Part shown: one piece after another, positions 1-9,395 of the stretch
Layout of the letters: every line of letters starts with the position of its first letter
Position numbering within the stretch: the stretch's first letter is position 1
Origin: a candidate division Zixibacteria bacterium SM23_81
GTDB taxonomy: Bacteria > SM23-81
Length of the DNA: 64,000 bases
Reading direction: 5' to 3'
NCBI GenBank assembly: GCA_001304015.1
Contig: LJUY01000010.1
Coordinates: 31,507 to 95,506, forward strand
Program-made: the position numbers and the translations under genes
Notes under the pieces: generated by a model
Database searches by the model: none
What the model saw: the letters and a program-made list of their open reading frames with translations, nothing else
Told to the model about the DNA's origin: nothing

Positions 1-1071
1 GCGACCCAGGGTTATGACCATCGACCCATGAACCTCCTCGTGTTTCAATCCCAAGGCCAAGAGCACATGAGAAGGCTCTAGCGTCTTCGAGGAGCATGCT
101 GACCCTGTGGAGACCTGAATATTGTACCCCATATCCATGTTCAACACGATGCTCTCACCCTCTATGCCGCTGAAACGAAAACTGACATGATGTGGAAGCC
201 TCTGAGCGGGATGGCCGGTGAGATAGGCCTGGTCGATTTTCTGTATCTCCTCAATAAGCTTGTTCCTTATCGTTTTAAGCCTGTTAGTTTCCTGCTCCAT
301 CTCGTCCTTCGCGATCCTGGCCGCCTGACCCATTCCAGCAATGGCGAAGATGTTCTCCGTGCCCGACCTGAGCCCGCGCTCCTGTCCGCCACCGGGAAGG
401 ACGGTTTGCAGCTTGATGCCCTTCTTGATATACAACGCCCCAGCCCCTTGGGGTCCGTAAAGATCGTTCGATGACAGGGTCAGCAGGTCAATTCCATCTT
501 TTTGCACATCTATGGGGATACGCCCAGCAGCCGCTGTGGCATCAACATGAAAATAAAGCCCTCTTTGGTGCACGATTTCGCTGATCTCCCCGATGGGTTC
601 GACGGTCCCGATTTCGTTGTTGGCGTACATGACGGATGTCACCGTGGTCTCTTGGCTGACCATCTCAGAGAGTCTCTCCGCCGAGACGATGCCGGTCGCA
701 TCCACCGGTATACGGTTCAGCTGGAAGCCGCTTTTCTGCAGCTCCTTCATGGGATTGAGGACGGACATATGTTCTATTGCGCTGGCGCCGATCTCTTTCC
801 CCTGCGCCATATTCCTCACAGCGGCCCCCTTGATGGCCAGGTTGTTCGCTTCTGTTGCTCCGCTGGTGAAGACAATGCATTGCGCCTCTTCAGCGTTGAT
901 GAAGTCGGCGATCTTTCCCCTGGCCTCTTCCACGACCTTTTTGGCCTCTGAGCCTACCGAATGGGTGGATGAAGGGTTGCCGAACCCTTTTCGCAGAAAA
1001 GGTTCGGCAAACTCCCACACCTTAGGATGGATGGGCATCGCGGAGGCGTGATCTAAGTATATCGCTTCCAT
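1..1071 (-). CDS. NifS/IscS-like cysteine desulfurase lacking the PLP lysine (3' end outside window)
   Basis: Class V aminotransferase-fold protein of the NifS/IscS family, expected to move sulfur from L-cysteine onto its own cysteine. ATG at 1071; about 357 residues are visible and the C-terminus lies beyond the left edge. The sulfur-accepting loop STGSACSS is intact (Cys326), as are the His of IEHMSV and the Asp of HVDATAAAGR that normally contact PLP. Where the family has SxHK, this protein reads LTLSSNDLYGPQGAGALY, so the Schiff-base lysine is replaced by Asp203. From memory of the literature, an Archaeoglobus fulgidus IscS with Asp at this position has been characterised structurally. 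The gene lies 21 bases after the DsrE-like gene and downstream of tusA, so it probably feeds sulfur to those carriers. Family assignment is firm; whether it is active alone is open. Confidence 0.9.
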   Translation of the reverse strand, partial: MEAIYLDHASAMPIHPKVWEFAEPFLRKGFGNPSSTHSVGSEAKKVVEEARGKIADFINAEEAQCIVFTSGATEANNLAIKGAAVRNMAQGKEIGASAIEHMSVLNPMKELQKSGFQLNRIPVDATGIVSAERLSEMVSQETTVTSVMYANNEIGTVEPIGEISEIVHQRGLYFHVDATAAAGRIPIDVQKDGIDLLTLSSNDLYGPQGAGALYIKKGIKLQTVLPGGGQERGLRSGTENIFAIAGMGQAARIAKDEMEQETNRLKTIRNKLIEEIQKIDQAYLTGHPAQRLPHHVSFRFSGIEGESIVLNMDMGYNIQVSTGSACSSKTLEPSHVLLALGLKHEEVHGSMVITLGR

Positions 1072-1092
1072 AATCTTCGCGTCTCCCTTTGT

Positions 1093-1455
1093 TTAAAACC
1101 ACATGGTTGTCCCTGCCTCCAGGGCAAGATCGTTCAGAGTCGCAGCACCTACGATTTTGACATCTGGTATCAGGTCCACTTTGTCCCAACCCAACATCTG
1201 CTTGGATGCCTCACAGACTAAGATCTCAATTCCCATGTCCAGTGTTTTCTTCATCAGCTCCATAACGGAGGGAAAGGATCCCAGCTTTATGTTATCGGCT
1301 GCACCCGGCTTCAGTATTTTCAAGCCTTGGCCCAAATAGTAGATTTTTGGATTGAGATCCATAGCCTTGGCCGTCTGGGCCAACACCAGAGGAGAATACT
1401 GCCTCTCTGGCTCGTCGCTGGTCTGCACATAGAGGATTAACTTTTCGTCTTTCAT
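1093..1455 (-). CDS. DsrE/DsrF-like sulfur-carrier protein
   Basis: A 120-residue soluble protein with the DsrE/TusD-like alternating beta-alpha pattern: an N-terminal strand KLILYVQTS, a predicted helix, then GIEILVCEASKQ with Cys81 at the place where sulfur-relay members carry the reactive cysteine. Proteins of this family accept persulfide sulfur from a desulfurase or TusA and pass it on. It sits between tusA and the desulfurase gene on the same strand with short gaps, which supports a three-gene sulfur-relay operon. Only one cysteine is visible, so a single-thiol relay is the simplest reading. The family call is good; the final sulfur acceptor is unknown. Some relatives are annotated only as peroxiredoxin-family or DsrE-family hypothetical proteins. 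Confidence 0.75.
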   Translation of the reverse strand: MKDEKLILYVQTSDEPERQYSPLVLAQTAKAMDLNPKIYYLGQGLKILKPGAADNIKLGSFPSVMELMKKTLDMGIEILVCEASKQMLGWDKVDLIPDVKIVGAATLNDLALEAGTTMWF

Positions 1456-1533
1456 TTCTGCGCTCCTTGCTTGTTTTTCTCTCTCATATATTACAGTAAC
1501 AGAGATAGGTGGAAAGATGACTATCGTTTTGCC

Positions 1534-1776
1534 TCATTTCGTCTTTCGTATCAAGAAGGTCAAGATTGGCCCCTCTTTTTCTAACTTCAAGATCTCATTC
1601 CCAGTCCTCTTGGCCCATCGTTTGATATCCTCCTCCGCCGCAGGATCATCCGCCTCCACCTTTAACACCTGCCCTACATCGATCTGGTCTATTTTCTCCT
1701 TGGTCATAAAGATCGGCATGGGGCAGTAGAGGCCAACACAATCCAACTCAGCATCAGCATTGATGTCCAAATCCAT
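1534..1776 (-). CDS. tusA: TusA-family sulfurtransferase
   Basis: An 80-residue protein with the TusA/SirA/YeeD signature: LDCVGLYCPMPI, where Cys18 of the CPxP motif is the persulfide-carrying residue, followed by the family pattern of a central acidic helix (DDPAAEEDIKRWAKRTG) and a last beta strand. It has the usual length for the family. TusA proteins take sulfur from a cysteine desulfurase and deliver it to tRNA thiolation, molybdenum cofactor or dissimilatory sulfur pathways. It is the first gene of a minus-strand set with the DsrE-like and desulfurase genes, which matches that partner list. The extra Cys13 just ahead of the motif is seen in a number of family members. Confidence 0.88.
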   Translation of the reverse strand: MDLDINADAELDCVGLYCPMPIFMTKEKIDQIDVGQVLKVEADDPAAEEDIKRWAKRTGNEILKLEKEGPILTFLIRKTK

Positions 1777-2056: not shown

Positions 2057-2551
2057 CTACGGTCCCACGTGCATCATGGGCCACTGTGAATCGTAATCCT
2101 CGAATTTTTTGGCATTATCCCTCTCAATCTCAAGGATCTTGTAGTGTCCCAGCTCCATGGACGCGATGTATAGAAGCATTTTTTTGACATCTGGTTGCTG
2201 ATCGTATCTATCTGCTAACCTATTGTAAAAATCATGAGCGGCTAGCTCCGCCTCCATGGCGCTCTCCAGAATTTCACTGAGAGGCATATTCTCTGCATCT
2301 ATCTGAATCTGAGGCAGGGGAACAGGGCTCTCCTGCGGTAATGTCATCTCCTTATGGGGGAAGCTCTTTTTATAAAGCCGCTCAAAAAACCTTCTATGCT
2401 TTTCTTCCTCTCCTGCCAGGAAGTTCAACCTTTCCTTCAAAATGAAGTTCTCCACACCCTCGGCTAATTGCGAGTAGGCCACTTTAGCCTCAATCTCGCT
2501 CTTCAACGCCGTCAGCATCAGATCCTCAACGCTGTAATTGCTTAATTCCAT
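2057..2551 (-). CDS. Ferritin-like diiron protein (rubrerythrin family, no rubredoxin domain)
   Basis: A 164-residue all-helical protein of the ferritin-like/rubrerythrin superfamily. Two half-repeats are visible, each with an E...ExxH type pattern: the first around EIEAKVAYSQLAE and GEEEKHRRFFERL, the second around AMEAELAAHDFYNRLAD and MELGHYKILEIE. These glutamates and histidines would build a carboxylate-bridged diiron site. No Cys4 rubredoxin domain follows, unlike classical rubrerythrin. It lies 43 bases after the ferredoxin-like gene and appears to share the Rrf2 operon. A likely role is peroxide reduction or iron handling in an anaerobe; the physiological electron donor cannot be told from sequence. 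Confidence 0.78.
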   Translation of the reverse strand: MELSNYSVEDLMLTALKSEIEAKVAYSQLAEGVENFILKERLNFLAGEEEKHRRFFERLYKKSFPHKEMTLPQESPVPLPQIQIDAENMPLSEILESAMEAELAAHDFYNRLADRYDQQPDVKKMLLYIASMELGHYKILEIERDNAKKFEDYDSQWPMMHVGP

Positions 2552-2594
2552 GGCCCCCTCCTTTCAGTCCTGTTCGCTGGGCTTGGCTACCCCC

Positions 2595-3371
2595 TCAGCT
2601 TGTGGCCGTTGCCGCTTGGCTTCGCTCCAATATCTCACCTCGGATGCCGACCTTGGTCAGGACCAGAGGAATCTCCTTTCCAGAATCTCGCAGGGCCGCT
2701 TGTACCAGCTGTACCAAGCCAAAACAGCAGGGCACCTCCATATGGGCCACTTCCACCATTCGAATGTCATTCTGGCGGAATATCTCCGAGAGCTTCCGGC
2801 GATAGGCCTCCATATCATCCAGCTTGGGACATCCCACTACCAGCGCACGACCTTTCAAGAACTTACGATGGAAATCTCCATAGGCGAAGGGAACGCAATC
2901 GGCGGCGATGAGCAAGTCGGCGTCCTGAAAATAAGGAGCATTCACCGGGACCAAATGAAGCTGTACCGGCCATTGGCCCAGTTGTGTAGCTATCGCTCCG
3001 GTTTCTTCTGCGGCCGCAGACGGGGATGTTCCCTGGCGCTGGAGCACCTGAGACGCGGAACCCGGACAGGTGAAGTCACATGCTGGAGTCTTCGATTTAG
3101 GCTCCCAATCTGGAGTGGTCTTCTCCTCAAGGAAAGACTCGAGATGCTTCTCGACGGCCCCCTCGTCAAAGGCATCTGCCTCCCTCGTCTCGATTGTCAA
3201 AGCACCTTGCGGACATTCCCCCAGGCAAGCACCCAAGCCATCACAGTAAACTTCGCCCACCAGCTTGGCCTTGCCGTCGATGACCTGGATAGCTCCCTCA
3301 GCGCAGGCTGGAACGCACAGTCCACAGCCATCACACCTCTCCTCGTCGATCTTGATAATCTCTCTACGCAT
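2595..3371 (-). CDS. 4Fe-4S ferredoxin-domain protein, Rrf2-associated
   Basis: About 259 residues. An N-terminal two-cluster ferredoxin domain is clear: Cys13, Cys16, Cys19, Cys23 (RCDGCGLCVPAC) and a second set Cys43, Cys49, Cys53 before Pro. After a variable linker comes a conserved C-terminal domain with more cysteines (AADCVPFA, VVGCPKLDD, VPCCFG). Proteins with this layout are found in anaerobes next to Rrf2 regulators; their reaction is not established. The start is placed at 3371 because GGAGG sits six bases upstream, and this ATG overlaps the last codons of the Rrf2 gene, giving translational coupling. Upstream in-frame codons (3389) are less well placed. Likely an electron-transfer or Fe-S sensing partner of the neighbouring diiron protein. 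Confidence 0.75.
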   Translation of the reverse strand: MRREIIKIDEERCDGCGLCVPACAEGAIQVIDGKAKLVGEVYCDGLGACLGECPQGALTIETREADAFDEGAVEKHLESFLEEKTTPDWEPKSKTPACDFTCPGSASQVLQRQGTSPSAAAEETGAIATQLGQWPVQLHLVPVNAPYFQDADLLIAADCVPFAYGDFHRKFLKGRALVVGCPKLDDMEAYRRKLSEIFRQNDIRMVEVAHMEVPCCFGLVQLVQAALRDSGKEIPLVLTKVGIRGEILERSQAATATS

Positions 3372-3795
3372 CAACATCCTCCTGACCATAAACGTCAGTT
3401 AACTCAGACAACTTCATTCCCTCTAAATAGGCTCGATACCGGTTGTTCGTGGTCAACAAAAGATCGCCGAAAATGCATTGCGCGCCGCTACATATAGGAG
3501 TTTCAAAAAGACACCTGTTAGATGTAAGGGGGCCGTCAATGGCTTCATATACCTCCAAAAGGGTAATTTCATCGCCCTTTTTTCCTAGCGCAAAACCCCC
3601 TTTCGGTCCTCGGCTTGACCTGACCAGACCCACTCTAGCAAGTCGCTGCAGTACCTTTGACAGGTGAGCCTCGGAAACGTGAAGAGCGGAGGCAATCCCC
3701 CTTACCGAGAAAATCGTTTCCGGCTTTGAGGCCAACAAAGCCATTGAATGCAGCGCCAGCGAGGCTGCCTCAGAAATGTGCATCACTTTCGGCAT
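3364..3795 (-). CDS. Rrf2-family Fe-S cluster transcriptional regulator
   Basis: 143 residues with the Rrf2 layout: a winged helix in the first 75 residues (VRGIASALHVSEAHLSKVL followed by the wing RGPKGGFAL) and a cysteine triad Cys95, Cys102, Cys107 that in IscR, NsrR and RsrR relatives binds an Fe-S cluster. It therefore probably senses Fe-S status, O2 or NO. The triad spacing (x6, x4) is not the IscR spacing (x5, x5), so the sub-family is left open. Its own promoter carries an inverted repeat that overlaps the -10 box (3813-3830), pointing to autorepression. The next gene overlaps its end, so it likely heads an operon with the ferredoxin-like and ferritin-like genes and possibly the tusA set. 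Confidence 0.88.
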   Translation of the reverse strand: MPKVMHISEAASLALHSMALLASKPETIFSVRGIASALHVSEAHLSKVLQRLARVGLVRSSRGPKGGFALGKKGDEITLLEVYEAIDGPLTSNRCLFETPICSGAQCIFGDLLLTTNNRYRAYLEGMKLSELTDVYGQEDVDA

Positions 3796-3812
3796 TCCCC
3801 ATCCCTCAAAAA

Positions 3813-3830
3813 TTGGTATTCAAGTACCAA
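3813..3830. promoter_or_regulatory. Probable Rrf2 operator
   Basis: The palindrome TTGGTA-N6-TACCAA has perfect 6-base arms. It touches the -10 box and covers the expected transcription start, the right place for an autorepressor site. The assignment to the Rrf2 protein is inference from position. Confidence 0.6.
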
Positions 3831-3857
3831 TATACCAGAATATTTCCCAGATGTCAA
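3829..3857 (-). promoter_or_regulatory. Sigma-70-type promoter of the Rrf2 operon
   Basis: On the minus strand TTGACA (3852-3857) is followed after exactly 17 bases by TATATT (3829-3834). The Rrf2 gene starts about 30 bases further on. Confidence 0.8.
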
Positions 3858-3979
3858 GAGAAAATTTCGTTCCTCACGAAAAAATTGACAAACCTCATAT
3901 GTTTAAAGAGGTTTGATCTTTAAAAAGTATTTTCCTTCCCATACGACTGCTTGAGAAGGAACGCGCCAGCGCGGTTTGG

Positions 3980-4016
3980 TAAAAAAAAGCCCCGACCGTT
4001 ATTCCAGTCAGGGCTA
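3980..4016 (-). terminator. Intrinsic terminator after the rubredoxin gene
   Basis: Read on the minus strand, AGCCCTGAC and GTCGGGGCT form a 9-bp stem (one G-U pair) with a 10-base loop, followed directly by a run of eight T. It lies 25 bases after the stop of the high-molecular-weight rubredoxin gene and closes the fprA operon. Confidence 0.85.
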
Positions 4017-4040
4017 GTGCATACTGTTGAGCGATGATGA

Positions 4041-4814
4041 TTAGCTTTCGGGCGAAAATTGATCCTTGCCGGCTCCACAGACCGGACACACCCATTCGTC
4101 CGGCAGAGCATCGAACTCGGTCCCCGGGGCGATGTCGCCGTCCGGATCTCCCTGGGCGGGATCGTAGACATAGCCGCACACTTCGCAGATATACTTCTGC
4201 ATCCCTTCCCTCCTCTTCTCTGGTTTCAGTTCCTTTTTTTCGATGTGACCTCTGTAAGTTGGGGCATTCTTCGAGGCCTTGCCCTTCTTCACCTCATGGT
4301 AATGGGCGTACGTCAGGGGCTTTCCCTTACGCAGCCTCTCAGCACGTACCACCTGACCCACAAATATGGTGTGTGTGCCCGCATCGCACTGATCGATGAC
4401 CTTGGCTTCGAACACCGAGATGACGGAATCGGTGACCAGAGGACAGCCGGTGATGCCCTTCTTGTACTTGCACATGGCCAGTTTATCGACATCCCGACCC
4501 GACTTGAAGCCGAACAGCCCAATCAACTTCATGGGTGTAGATTCATCCAGAACCGAGACGCCGAACTGGCCACTTTTGACGATGTACTCGTGGGTCAGAT
4601 TGTTCTTGGAAATGGCCACTGCAACCCGGGGAGGCTCCGCTGTAACCTGCATGCATGCATTGGCTATCTGGCCATTTAACCTTTCCCCGTCGTGGGATGA
4701 GACGATGTAGAGGCCATAGCTCCAATCGAAGAGCGCCGTGAGATCCACTTGGCCCGTTGCGATGATCACCCTCCTTGTTATAAGATCCCCTTCATAGGAC
4801 ATTGACTTCGTCAA
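4041..4814 (-). CDS. hrb: High-molecular-weight rubredoxin (flavin reductase domain plus rubredoxin)
   Basis: 257 residues in two domains. Residues ~20-190 form a flavin-reductase-like (flavoredoxin) domain with the typical [20 protein letters not shown] start; residues ~205-257 form a rubredoxin with YICEVCGY and [13 protein letters not shown], the four iron cysteines. This fusion is known as Hrb in Moorella, where it passes electrons from NADH to the flavodiiron protein FprA. The gene directly follows fprA and overlaps its stop codon, the same partnership. The start is uncertain: a TTG at 4814 overlaps the fprA stop (translational coupling), while the ATG at 4802 is an alternative; neither has a strong ribosome site. 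Function is well supported. Confidence 0.9.
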
Positions 4815-6016
4815 GAAGACACTTTGCCCAGCTTTTCAGCCACCCTGGATCCCAGGGAAAAGCATTCGGCCAGGACAGACTCATCTGGCACGTACTTGAC
4901 TTTCAAGCCATCGCCTATTAGATCGATCTTCATCTCAGCCAGCACTTCCATCACTTGTCCCACTGCCTCTCCACTCCAGCCGTATGAGCCGAAGGCCGTG
5001 CCCATGAGATTTTTGGGCTTCAATCCCTTTAGATAAGCCAGAGTGCCAGCCACCGTGGGAAACATGTTGTTGTTGATGGTCGGAGATCCCACCAGAAGAG
5101 CGCCCGCATCCAGAACCTCGGTGACCACCTCGCTGCGATGGCATGATTCCAGGGGCATCAATTTCGTCATCGTCCCGCCAGCCCTCAGCCCCTCGGCGAT
5201 GGTTCTGGCCATCAATGCGGTGCTCTGCCACATGGTGTCGTATACCACCACGGCCTTATTGGTCGGTCTCTGAGCAGCCCAGGTGGCATACAGCTTTGGC
5301 ATCCTGCTCACTTCTTTCCGCCAGATGGGCCCGTGGTCCGGGGCTATGGTCTCGATGGTGATGCCCAGTCCCTTCACCCTTTCCAGAAGCTTGGAGACGA
5401 GTGCAGAAAACGGCAACAGAATGTTGGCATAATACTTGGCCGCCTCATAGTTCAGAATCCAATCCTCAATCTGGTCGGCGAACCGCTCGCTGGAGGCCAG
5501 ATGCATTCCAAATGCGTCCTGGGAGAAGAGCAATTTATCCTCGGCCAGGTAGGTGACCATGCTGTCGGGCCAGTGAAGCATGCGAGTCTCCAAGAAGGTG
5601 AGGTTGAGGTTCCCAAGGCTGAGGCTTTCCCCGTCCTTGACCTCGGAGATCTCCCGGTCCAGGTGAAAATGTTCCTGCAAAGCCTTAGTTCCCATGACAG
5701 AGGCGAATACCTTCTCGGGCTTCACCGCCTGAATCGCCTGGGGCAGGCATCCAGAGTGGTCCATCTCGGAATGGTTGGAGATGATGTAGTCGATCTTACG
5801 GGGATCGATGACCGAGGCTATCCGGACCAACATCTCCTCTAGGAAAGGAGCTTTGACCGTGTCCACCAGGGTAACCTTATCCGCAAGAATCAGGTAAGCA
5901 TTGTAAGTCGATCCCCGATCCGTGGCATAGCCGTGAAAATTTCGAATGCTCCAGTCGATGGCTCCCACCCAGTAGACGCGGTCGTTCACCTGCGTCGCTT
6001 GGAAATATGTTTTCAT
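4811..6016 (-). CDS. fprA: Flavodiiron protein (O2/NO reductase)
   Basis: 401 residues, the normal length for class A flavodiiron proteins. The N-terminal metallo-beta-lactamase-like domain has the diiron ligands HSEMDH (His82, Glu84, Asp86), His148 (MLHWPDSM), Asp167 (FSQDAFG) and His228 (APDHGPIW). From about residue 253 a flavodoxin domain follows ([15 protein letters not shown], the FMN phosphate loop). The enzyme reduces O2 to water or NO to N2O using electrons from rubredoxin; the gene for a rubredoxin-flavin reductase fusion follows immediately. It sits in an operon with two ferritin-like genes and desulfoferrodoxin, a classic anaerobe oxygen-defence set. Confidence 0.95.
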
Positions 6017-6038
6017 ATGCCTTCCCCCGGGTGCTGAG

Positions 6039-6536
6039 CTATGGTTTCAGAGAGGTCAATTGGTTACTCAAAATGGTCACGTGTCTCATCTCCTCCTTGA
6101 TCACGTCGTCGATCTTGTTCCTGCCCAACCTCTCCGGCACCATCTCCCGGATGCCCTGATAAAAGACGATGGAGTCCTTCTCCAACCCCAGGGCCGTTCG
6201 GTAAATCTCCTCCAGGGTCTCTTTTCCGGTGAGCTTTTCGCTGGGATCCGTCTTCACGTCGAAGACATGTCCATCGGCCATGGCTCGCAAGTACATGGCG
6301 GCTTGACCCTCGGGATCGAACATCTCCCAGCCACGATCCTTATCCGGCAGATTGGCTCTCATGTTCGAGAAAATCTTGAGGTGCTGGTCTTCCCAGGAAG
6401 CCAGATTGAGCAGTGTATCGCGTGTCCCAGAACCTTCAAATCCCTCAGCTGCCTTGCGGTAGAACTTGGCGCCATTTCTCTCGATCTGTTCGGCCATCTC
6501 GAAGATCTCGTCAGCATTGAACTCGACACCCATCAT
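6039..6536 (-). CDS. Ferritin-like diiron protein (rubrerythrin-type)
   Basis: 165 residues, all helical, of the ferritin-like superfamily. Metal-ligand patterns are visible in both halves: [16 protein letters not shown] with [10 protein letters not shown], and [15 protein letters not shown] with [11 protein letters not shown]. It has no rubredoxin domain. Similar stand-alone diiron proteins occur beside flavodiiron proteins and desulfoferrodoxin in anaerobes and are thought to act in peroxide reduction or iron storage. Its start overlaps the end of the ferritin gene by four bases and fprA follows after 22 bases, so the three are one transcript. It is a distant paralog of the 2057-2551 gene. 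Confidence 0.8.
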
Positions 6537-7054
6537 TCGCCTCCTTCCTCTGCCGCAGGTGGAGTGAACACACGCTGACCCAGCTCCCGATCAATCATAA
6601 ACATCCCTCCCCCTTCCTTGCCCACCATCTTGAGTTTCTGCACGACATCATCAGCGGAGGCCTCTTCCTCCACCTGCTCGGAGACGAACCACTGGAGGAA
6701 ATTCTGGGTAGCGTGGTCTCGCTCTGTGATGGCCAAATCCACCAGGCTGTTGATCATGCCAGTGACCTTCTGCTCGTGTTTGTAGACGGTTTGGAAGGCG
6801 GCCAAGGGCGAAGACCAATTGGTGGCCGGTTTCTCTATGGCGCTTACCAGGATCCTGCCACCGCGCTCGTTGACGAAATCGAAAATCTTCATGGCGTGGG
6901 TTGATTCTTCCATGGCCTGCACGCGCATCCAGTTGGCGAAACCTCCAAAACTGATCGAATGAAAGTAAGCGGACATTGACAGATAGAGATATGCGGAATA
7001 CAGCTCCGCCACGATCTGCTTATTGAGTGCTGTTTGCATCTTCTTGCTCAGCAT
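6533..7054 (-). CDS. ftnA: Bacterial non-haem ferritin
   Basis: 173 residues with the standard ferritin four-helix bundle: [18 protein letters not shown] (first ferroxidase glutamate), [15 protein letters not shown] (ExxH), and the later [16 protein letters not shown] segment with further ligands. This is the FtnA class that forms a 24-subunit shell and oxidises and stores iron. It has the usual length plus a short acidic tail. It lies four bases downstream of desulfoferrodoxin and overlaps the next ferritin-like gene, so iron storage is co-expressed with superoxide and oxygen reduction, which limits Fenton chemistry. No haem-binding methionine of bacterioferritin is apparent at the dimer interface. 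Confidence 0.92.
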
Positions 7055-7058
7055 GGCA

Positions 7059-7433
7059 TTATCCTTTCCATAAACCGTGAAGATTGCAGTACTCCCGGGC
7101 CGTTACCTGATCTGCCTCGATGCAGAAGGTGGCCTCGGGCACTCCCCCTGGCTTTAAAAACTGACGGTAGGTCTGGCCATCGGCGATGACCTGGATCCAC
7201 TCGATGTAGTGCTGCGCCTCCATGGGATGAGCCACACTCCCCACCTTGACCTTAAAGCCATCGGCGGTCTTCTCCACCACGGGCACGTGCTTCTCCTTGG
7301 CCGCGTCCACCGTGTTCTCGACATAGAGCTTCATGGGCTTTCCGCAGCAGATCATCTGCCCGGCGCCGCCGTGGAGCATCTCCACGATATTGCCGCAGGT
7401 TTCGCATTTATAGACTTGCATTTTCTCAGTCAT
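7059..7433 (-). CDS. dfx: Desulfoferrodoxin (superoxide reductase)
   Basis: 124 residues, two iron domains. Residues 1-40 form the desulforedoxin-like Cys4 site (YKCETCG, then MICCGKPM). The rest is the neelaredoxin-type catalytic domain with the Fe-His4-Cys ligands: [22 protein letters not shown] and the final [10 protein letters not shown]. The KHVP lysine near the active site is present. The enzyme reduces superoxide to peroxide without making O2. It is first in an operon with ftnA, a ferritin-like gene, fprA and hrb. Its product, peroxide, can be removed by the catalase and rubrerythrin encoded just upstream. Confidence 0.95.
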
Positions 7434-7769
7434 TTTTCTCCTCCTCTTGGACTATCTTATGACACAGCCACTAGTTTAAATATGCTGATATTTCAGTCTT
7501 CCTAATGAGGCTAAATTTAGATGCAAAATTACCTTTCTCGGTTCAAGACGACAATTCCTTATAAAAGCCACGTCGATGGCTCTCACCTTTGAATTCCAAC
7601 CTGCTTCAACCAGCTACACGCTCATTCTGGCCACCTCCTTTTGAGAGTTCCTGGCGATAGTAACGGATACTAAACCTCTCTCTTAATCCCTACGGCTGCT
7701 GCCTTCCAACAGCCCTATACCCTGTCATTCCAAATCCAATGGAAGGGATATGCTCTTCGTAGGACAGGC
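7434..7769 (-). other. Intergenic region upstream of dfx
   Basis: 336 bases without a credible gene. A purine-rich ribosome site precedes dfx. No clear TTGACA/TATAAT pair is visible. CTAAATTTAG (7511-7520) is a perfect but short palindrome in an AT-rich part and might be a regulator site. A GGCTGTTG/CAGCAGCC hairpin lies nearer the catalase end but has no T-run, so I do not call it a terminator. Confidence 0.4.
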
Positions 7770-9281
7770 TTATTTCTCAGTGGCCTTTATTCGATCCTCC
7801 TGGGTCATCTCGGCCAAACCCTGAACCTCTTTGACGTCCAACCCGATCCCTGTAGCCACGCGACGACCGTAGTCCTCATCGGCTTTGCCAAACAGCGCTG
7901 TCTGGCGCAGCTGAATGTACTTCTGGGCATTGCCCAGGTGACCCACGATGTTGCCGATCAGGTGGTCGCGATCCTCATCGGTCATCACCTTCCGATAGAG
8001 ATCTCCGGCCTGTACGAAATCGTCATCGGTCAGGGCCTCTGGATGGCGAGCAGCCATTCCTGAGACCTCGAATGGCGGTTCGGCCACGTTGGGGTCTGGC
8101 ACAGGACCACCGAAGCTATTGGGATTGTAATTCGGGCCACCTCCGCTGTTGCCATCAACGCGCATGAAACCATCTCGCTGGTAATTGTTCATGGCTGAGG
8201 CCTTGGGTGCGTTGATGGGCAACAGATGATAGTTGGGTCCCAGGCGATACCGGTGAGCATCGTGGTAGGCGAAGATGCGCCCCTGAAGCATCTTGTCCGG
8301 CGATGCAGCCATGCCGGGGACGAAGTTGCCCGGAGAGAAAGCAGCCTGTTCCACCTCGGCGAAGTAGTTTTCCGGATTGCGGTTTAAGACCATGCGTCCC
8401 AATGGCATCACAGGAAAATCGCCGTGGGGCAAAACCTTGGTGACATCGAACGGGTTGAAGCGATATGTCTTGGCCTGTTCGGGTGTCATGATCTGTACCT
8501 GCACATTCCAAGCGGGGCCATCGCCTCGCTCGATGGCATCGAACAGATCCCCGGTGGCATGGTCGGGATCCTTGCCGGCCATGAGTTCTGCTTCCTGGTT
8601 GGTAAAGTTCTGGATGCCCTGGGCTGTCTTGAAATGAAACTTCACCCAGACATACTCTTCTTTGTCGTTGTACCACATCAGGGCATGCCCGCTATAGCCG
8701 TTCATGTGGCGGTAGCTCTTGGGTGTGCCCCGATCGGAGAAGAGAATGGTGACCTGGTGTATGGACTCCGGGGTCAGGGAGAGGAAATCCCAGAACATGT
8801 CAGGATCTTTCGCGTTTGTGCGGGGATTCCGCTTCTGGGTGTGGATGAAGTCGGGGAACTTAATCGGGTCCCGAATGAAGAAGACCGGCGTGTTGTTACC
8901 CACCATATCCCAGTTGCCCTCCTCGGTGTAGAACTTCACCGCGAATCCCCGGGGATCGCGCGCCGAGTCGGCCGAACCCTTTTCGCCACCGACGGTGGAG
9001 AATCGAGCGAAGACCTCAGTTCGCTTGCCCACCTTTGACAGAAATTTGGCCTTGGTGTACTTGGTCAAGTCGTGAGTGACCTCGAAATACCCGTGAGCAC
9101 CCGCTCCCTTGGCGTGCACCACGCGCTCCGGGATGCGCTCCCGGTTGAAGTGAGCCAGTTTTTCGAAGAAATGGATGTTCTGGATCAAAACAGGTCCAGG
9201 GGAACCAGCGGTCATGAGTTTCTGGTCGTTATCCACCGGTTGACCGAAGTTTCTGGTGAGGGTCTTTTTCCCCTTTGCCAT
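7770..9281 (-). CDS. katA: Monofunctional haem catalase
   Basis: About 503 residues, a small-subunit (clade 3 type) catalase. The distal His56 is in [12 protein letters not shown], the catalytic Asn is in [11 protein letters not shown], and the proximal haem ligand Tyr339 is in [14 protein letters not shown]. The NADPH-region and C-terminal helices are present and there is no large-subunit flavodoxin-like tail. The start is set at the ATG at 9281: the upstream in-frame GTG at 9290 lies inside the GGAGGTG ribosome site, which is correctly spaced for 9281. It dismutates hydrogen peroxide in the cytoplasm. It follows the rubrerythrin gene by 114 bases and is probably in the PerR-controlled set that begins with the regulator at 11.8 kb. 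Confidence 0.96.
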
Positions 9282-9395
9282 CTGAAACACCTCCCTCTAC
9301 TTAGAACTAGAATGGAGACCTTTGGCCAGGCGCCATTTTAGCTATTTGTTCCCCGATCCCAATGAATTTCTCTTCATTCACAAGAGAGTTTTCCC

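Follow-up and report, generated by a model that had tools for sequence, protein, structure and literature searches.

A cysteine desulfurase paralogue without the PLP lysine is encoded with TusA and DsrE and may relay persulfide sulfur in Fe-S cluster assembly

The source of the sulfur that anaerobes and archaea build into their Fe-S clusters is an open question. An operon at the start of the window (the whole stretch of 64,000 nucleotides analyzed here) raises it in a particular form: what does a protein of the cysteine desulfurase family do once the lysine that binds PLP is gone? The operon is transcribed from the minus strand of positions 1-1776 in the order TusA, DsrE and IscS/NifS-like gene. 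The initial annotation had placed TusA and a DsrE-like gene alongside the IscS-like gene, and this agrees with their common strand and their Pfam matches (Table 1). The IscS-like ORF is complete on contig C36 (L009:11406-12578, minus strand; 3′ end at C36:31405), with its last 33 residues encoded beyond the window start, and its stop codon overlaps with the start codon (ATG) of the flavodiiron (FprA-type) gene that follows.

Table 1. Features of the operon and its upstream neighbors, in window coordinates.
Feature	Position	Strand	Remark
IscS/NifS-like gene without the PLP lysine	1..1071 + 102 bases beyond the window	-	390 aa
Lys329 (Cys+3) codon AAG	85..87	-	
Cys326 codon TGC	94..96	-	persulfide-carrying cysteine; retained in 59/59 lysine-less proteins
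Asp203 codon GAT	463..465	-	position of the PLP-Schiff-base lysine, E. coli IscS Lys206
Asn202 codon AAC	466..468	-	position of E. coli IscS His205
DsrE-family small sulfurtransferase	1093..1455	-	120 aa; Pfam PF02635/PF13686
DsrE Cys81 codon	1213-1215	-	
TusA-family sulfur carrier with CPxP	1534..1776	-	80 aa; Pfam PF01206
TusA Cys18 codon	1723-1725	-	
Rubrerythrin-like protein	2057..2551	-	upstream neighbor; putative role in the system
Fer4-containing (ferredoxin-domain) protein	2595-3389	-	upstream of the operon
Rrf2-family regulator	3364..3795	-	upstream; may regulate the operon

Farther upstream follow genes that, judged from their sequences, probably encode a flavin reductase with rubredoxin, a second FprA, another rubrerythrin, and ferritin-like, desulfoferrodoxin-like and catalase-like proteins. 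Positions 2057-9290 form a dense oxygen/peroxide-defense cluster with an Rrf2 regulator. The Fer4-containing protein near the operon belongs to one kind (250-264 aa) together with a protein of another genome (L061:4852-5604), where it is encoded directly upstream of a Gln-type IscS.

Active desulfurases read SxHK around the PLP lysine. Here the motif is SSND, with Asp203 at the lysine position (sequence context LTLSSNDLYGPQG), as the initial annotation had observed, and the normal NifS of the same genome reads LSMSGHKFYGPKG (SGHK) at the corresponding site (L010:6433-7605). The catalytic Cys326, also claimed to be retained, is present within GSACSS. The annotation's claim that further PLP contacts remain holds only in part. 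Although His101, Asp177, Thr73 and Ser200 have been retained, Asn202 and Ala180 stand where E. coli IscS has His205 and Gln183. The same replacements run through the lysine-less proteins with Asp, Asn or Glu (the D/N/E class) in the survey described below, where the Gln183 position is Ala in 42/46 and the His205 position Asn in 46/46. A lysine at Cys+3 is likewise found in 42 of these 46 proteins, vs 10 of 134 normal enzymes. In the other lysine-less classes, Q, T, S, H, R or L is found at the lysine position. Taken together, the residues suggest that persulfide-transfer chemistry is retained and that PLP chemistry has been abandoned.

The best PDB match is IscS of Archaeoglobus fulgidus (4EB5), which is 53% identical and has Asp at the equivalent place, so the archaeal parallel drawn in the initial annotation holds. 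The protein also carries the Asn202-Asp203 pair of the A. fulgidus type and falls on the same side of the branch as 4EB5 (support 100/99). This relative bears on whether the protein could still be a desulfurase, with PLP bound non-covalently or with another residue, for instance Lys329, or a partner providing the base. The retained contacts and the enrichment of Lys329 speak for such an activity, as does the PLP in the 4EB5 complex (PMC9769115). Use of free PLP, as the initial annotation suggested, is conceivable. It is nevertheless disfavored, because the Gln183 and His205 positions have been lost jointly and because the A. fulgidus protein is reported to have no desulfurase activity (PMC7585200, citing Pagnier 2014); the variety of residues that replace the lysine outside the D/N/E class also counts against it. 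We regard a persisting desulfurase activity as improbable.

A sequencing error, or a decaying pseudo-enzyme, would be another reason for the missing lysine, and the source genome is a draft MAG (92.6% complete). Yet the frame is full-length, Cys326 is invariant, and GAT needs two base changes to become a Lys codon (AAA/AAG). An orthologue from another family of the same phylum (L057; 69% identity) has Asn203, one from a Methanocellales MAG (L065; 71% identity) has Asp203, and relatives in Thermoplasmatota (Asp) and Methanomicrobiaceae (Glu) likewise lack the lysine. Chance or a read error is excluded by these relatives, and the possibility raised earlier that all close homologues carry Lys is contradicted by their Asn, Asp and Glu. 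The same operon recurs in distant phyla of two domains, and such conservation already refutes the error and decay readings, to which we assign next to no weight.

By its domain the protein is a member of the aminotransferase class V, fold-type I group (PF00266, E 4.9e-75). It nevertheless scores below every NCBIfam desulfurase cut-off and misses the curated equivalog thresholds for FeS_nifS (429 bits vs 531) and IscS (387 vs 643). Of the features of group I (NifS/IscS) desulfurases, the GSACxS cysteine is present and the SxHK lysine is absent. A model made with AlphaFold2 from 21 locus sequences (pLDDT 89.5, pTM 0.90) matches E. coli IscS (1p3w, Z 53.5), E. coli IscS from the TusA complex (3lvj, Z 53.7, 1.5 Å) and the A. 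fulgidus IscS-IscU complex (4eb7, Z 53.6, 1.4 Å). It superposes on 4eb7, 4hvk, the D199K mutant 4r5f and 3lvj at 1.2-1.5 Å, with the cysteine loop poorly modeled (pLDDT <50 at 325-328).

Homologues were collected from 98 prokaryote genomes, a named genome collection and archaeal genomes. For each one the flanks were taken, residue 203 was read, and the neighboring ORFs were searched with profiles for TusA, DsrE, IscU and Rrf2. This gave 193 distinct homologues, 134 with the lysine and 59 without it (44 D, 1 E, 1 N, 5 Q, 2 T, 2 S, 2 L, 1 H and 1 R). The lysine-less loci include archaea of the Methanocellales, Thermoplasmatota, Methanomicrobiaceae, Bathyarchaeota and Methanoperedens relatives, and bacteria represented by Stahlbacteria, Nitrospinota, Rokubacteria, Planctomycetota, Omnitrophota and Bacillota MAGs. 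TusA or DsrE was encoded on the same strand within 2 kb of 49/59 lysine-less genes vs 0/134 lysine-bearing genes (p 3e-36, for proteins that are not independent, given that a common ancestor is conceivable for the lineages that combine the two features). The association appears separately in the 98-genome sample (9/14 vs 0/63) and in the named collection (12/14 vs 0/67), and thus no single sample drives it. A bias of the TusA profile toward lysine-less loci was rejected as the cause, as a profile made from E. coli TusA and YedF alone gives 24/59 vs 0/134.

A comparison within genomes controls in part for relatedness. In the 17 genomes that have both forms, the relay genes occur only beside the lysine-less gene in 15 and only beside the lysine form in none (p 6e-5). 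A phylogenetic independent-pair test had too few pairs to reach significance. The remaining 10/59 lysine-less proteins have no TusA or DsrE nearby, some of them on short flanks and three (L164, L176 and L181) on full ones. In one genome (G088) a Leu-type lysine-less IscS is found beside IscU and Rrf2 without TusA or DsrE (L181/L185), and this may be a separate kind. With a further 18 loci, which by similarity to the A. fulgidus protein appear to be mostly or all Archaeoglobi and which have TusA and/or DsrE in 18/18, the lysine-less form stands beside TusA/DsrE in 67/77 loci from two domains. Neighboring TusA/DsrE genes are a mark of the lysine-less form as opposed to the normal one, which lends the sulfur-relay idea of the initial annotation strong backing from genomics.

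Beyond what that annotation had seen, IscU usually completes the operon in relatives. It adjoins 45/59 lysine-less genes and all of the further 18, and the order in the same-phylum orthologue (L057) is TusA-DsrE-IscS(Asn)-IscU; the operon of the Methanocellales relative L065 likewise includes IscU. In the lysine-less operons the candidate transfer cysteines are invariant (IscS Cys326 in 59/59, DsrE Cys81 in 40/40, TusA Cys18 in 23/23), and IscU retains its three cysteines in 45/46, 45/45 and 45/45 proteins. In Methanoperedens-type loci (L225:1395-2729, L244-L270) an IscU (NifU_N) fused to a flavin reductase domain, Pyr_redox_2 (~444 aa), directly follows the lysine-less IscS, and the redox domain would be a plausible electron source for converting sulfane sulfur to sulfide during Fe-S assembly. 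In a Methanosarcina locus, IscU is fused to FeS_assembly_P (MIP18-like) beside a Thr-type IscS, TusA and DsrE (L232:7256-7891). A haem-NO-binding (HNOB) sensor is encoded between DsrE and TusA in the operon of a Gln-type lysine-less IscS (L062:4867-5385).

On the tree, the D/N/E proteins including A. fulgidus IscS form one group (support 100/99) and the Q/T/S/H/R proteins a second (100/97); a Thr protein from Methanosarcina and a Leu pair belong to neither. The best tree requires four losses of the lysine, and TusA/DsrE neighbors occur in three of the four lysine-less groups. AU tests gave p 0.21-0.44 for a single lysine-less clade and so did not reject one origin; the four losses are the reading of the best tree and not a demonstrated number.

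The rest of the genome was searched for a second, normal NifS, as the initial annotation had advised, and one was found on contig C18 (SGHK) in a region with an MnmA-like gene. Another contig (C64; L012) has the same gene order as this NifS-MnmA region (L010) in a diverged sequence, which would fit a second strain or contamination of the MAG (4% contamination). The TusA of the operon is the only one found in the assembly; a second DsrE-family gene lies elsewhere, outside the operon. Within this small phylum, TusA and the lysine-less protein occur together in two genomes and are both absent from two others. The genome's own IscU is unlinked, on contig C75 with an Nfu-like gene, and its partnership with the IscS-like protein is therefore only a presumed one. 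Orthology of this IscU with the operon IscU of relatives was considered and is unsupported: it clusters with the IscU from a Thr-type operon (L064) and is about equally similar to normal IscUs.

We propose that this PLP-lysine-less paralogue is a persulfide relay and assembly partner, and not a desulfurase. The gene arrangement behind this reading is observed, the chemistry and the direction of sulfur are ours to propose, and we put its probability at roughly one half. Sulfane sulfur from sulfide, polysulfide or another donor would first be loaded on DsrE Cys81 and TusA Cys18. TusA/DsrE would then hand it to the IscS-like dimer, on whose mobile loop Cys326 would receive it; the dimer itself is presumed no longer to make persulfide from cysteine. 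Cys326 could finally deliver the sulfur to IscU while transiently ligating the nascent [2Fe-2S] cluster. Together these steps would supply Fe-S assembly with inorganic sulfur in place of cysteine, in parallel to the normal NifS. Points against the relay are the direction of flow in E. coli, from IscS to TusA, and the window operon itself, which has no IscU and a flavodiiron gene instead.

This exception could mean that the relay serves another acceptor than Fe-S clusters, such as tRNA thiolation, the molybdenum cofactor, thiolated metabolites or the flavodiiron/rubrerythrin proteins of oxygen defense encoded nearby. Besides the FprA gene in the window operon, several further loci (L059, L072, L091 and L140) have TusA and IscS without IscU nearby, and lysine-less genes more often have a gene for FprA, desulfoferrodoxin or rubrerythrin in their vicinity (7/28 vs 5/124, p 0.0015). 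On such small numbers these oxygen-defense neighbors would also fit cluster repair under oxygen stress. The prevalence of IscU next to lysine-less genes and its fusions to redox and FeS_assembly_P domains argue against another acceptor, and a role of TusA in tRNA thiolation with the lysine-less IscS is disfavored because the MnmA-like gene is found in the region of the normal NifS. On balance, a relay to something other than Fe-S clusters seems rather unlikely.

Another possibility is that the IscS-like protein acts as ligand and scaffold only, lending its cysteine to the cluster on IscU while free sulfide provides the sulfur and TusA and DsrE are co-expressed for other tasks. This is the published view for A. 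fulgidus IscS, as cited in two papers (PMC7585200; PMC9769115), and the IscU adjacency agrees with it, as does the finding that sulfide feeds SMS, another minimal system, in vivo (PMC12192291). It leaves unexplained, however, why TusA/DsrE stand beside the lysine-less form alone, even within one genome, and why the only TusA of the present genome is sited here. A pure ligand role is in our judgment unlikely, if the best of the competing explanations. The persulfide relay could also be extended to a widespread, cysteine-free branch of Fe-S assembly among anaerobic bacteria and archaea, running from TusA/DsrE through a PLP-free IscS to IscU, in which the lysine was lost repeatedly and the E. coli IscS-TusA step reversed; this wider proposal is tentative, and we hold it at somewhat short of even odds.

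A lysine-less IscS was already known from A. fulgidus, where it has been an oddity since 2012. What is new is the tie to TusA/DsrE, with a mechanism that is testable and possibly general: the components of a system can now be named, and the direction in which sulfur flows through it can be put to the test. Many genes annotated as 'cysteine desulfurase' in such genomes probably do not encode one. Our literature searches found no published link between TusA, DsrE, IscS and IscU, key subscription originals being beyond their reach, and the accessible literature on A. fulgidus IscS does not mention its TusA/DsrE linkage.

Among known systems, A. fulgidus IscS (4EB5/4EB7/4HVK; D199K mutant 4R5F) shares the cysteine loop GSACSSKTLxP and the TusA-DsrE-IscS operon. 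We take genome G438 to be A. fulgidus, since its protein is 100% identical to 4EB5; its two loci read TusA-DsrE-IscS(Asp)-IscU and DsrE-IscS(Asp)-IscU. A second, DsrE-like ORF lies close downstream of the former genes on the same strand (L298:4572-4970). A. fulgidus Cys321 is reported to be a ligand of the cluster on IscU (PMC9769115). The difference is that IscU directly follows there, whereas here the flavodiiron gene follows and IscU is unlinked.

The Methanosarcina locus L232 resembles the window in its order TusA-DsrE-IscS-IscU, with Thr at the lysine position, but the best tree places its protein outside the D/N/E clade. Methanosarcina acetivorans IscS1 (MA0808) is reported to lack the catalytic lysine and to lie beside iscU1 and four genes of unknown function (PMC7585200). 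As this archaeon is genetically tractable, the model can be tested there. MIS (MisS-MisU; Garcia et al.) is similar as an IscS-IscU pair of anaerobes and archaea, a pair that close relatives of the present genome show and that is here split between contigs. MIS is described as including a cysteine desulfurase (PMC12192291; PMC12442378), whereas the present kind lacks the desulfurase lysine and adds TusA and DsrE.

The E. coli IscS-TusA(-TusBCD-TusE-MnmA) system links IscS, TusA and a DsrE-family protein by persulfide transfer, as is proposed here. Of the parts of that relay, the CPxP cysteine of TusA is present, with one DsrE-family gene in the operon and the second elsewhere. E. coli IscS, which has the lysine, donates sulfur to TusA. 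With that lysine gone here, we propose that the sulfur may flow the opposite way, from TusA/DsrE to the IscS-like protein.
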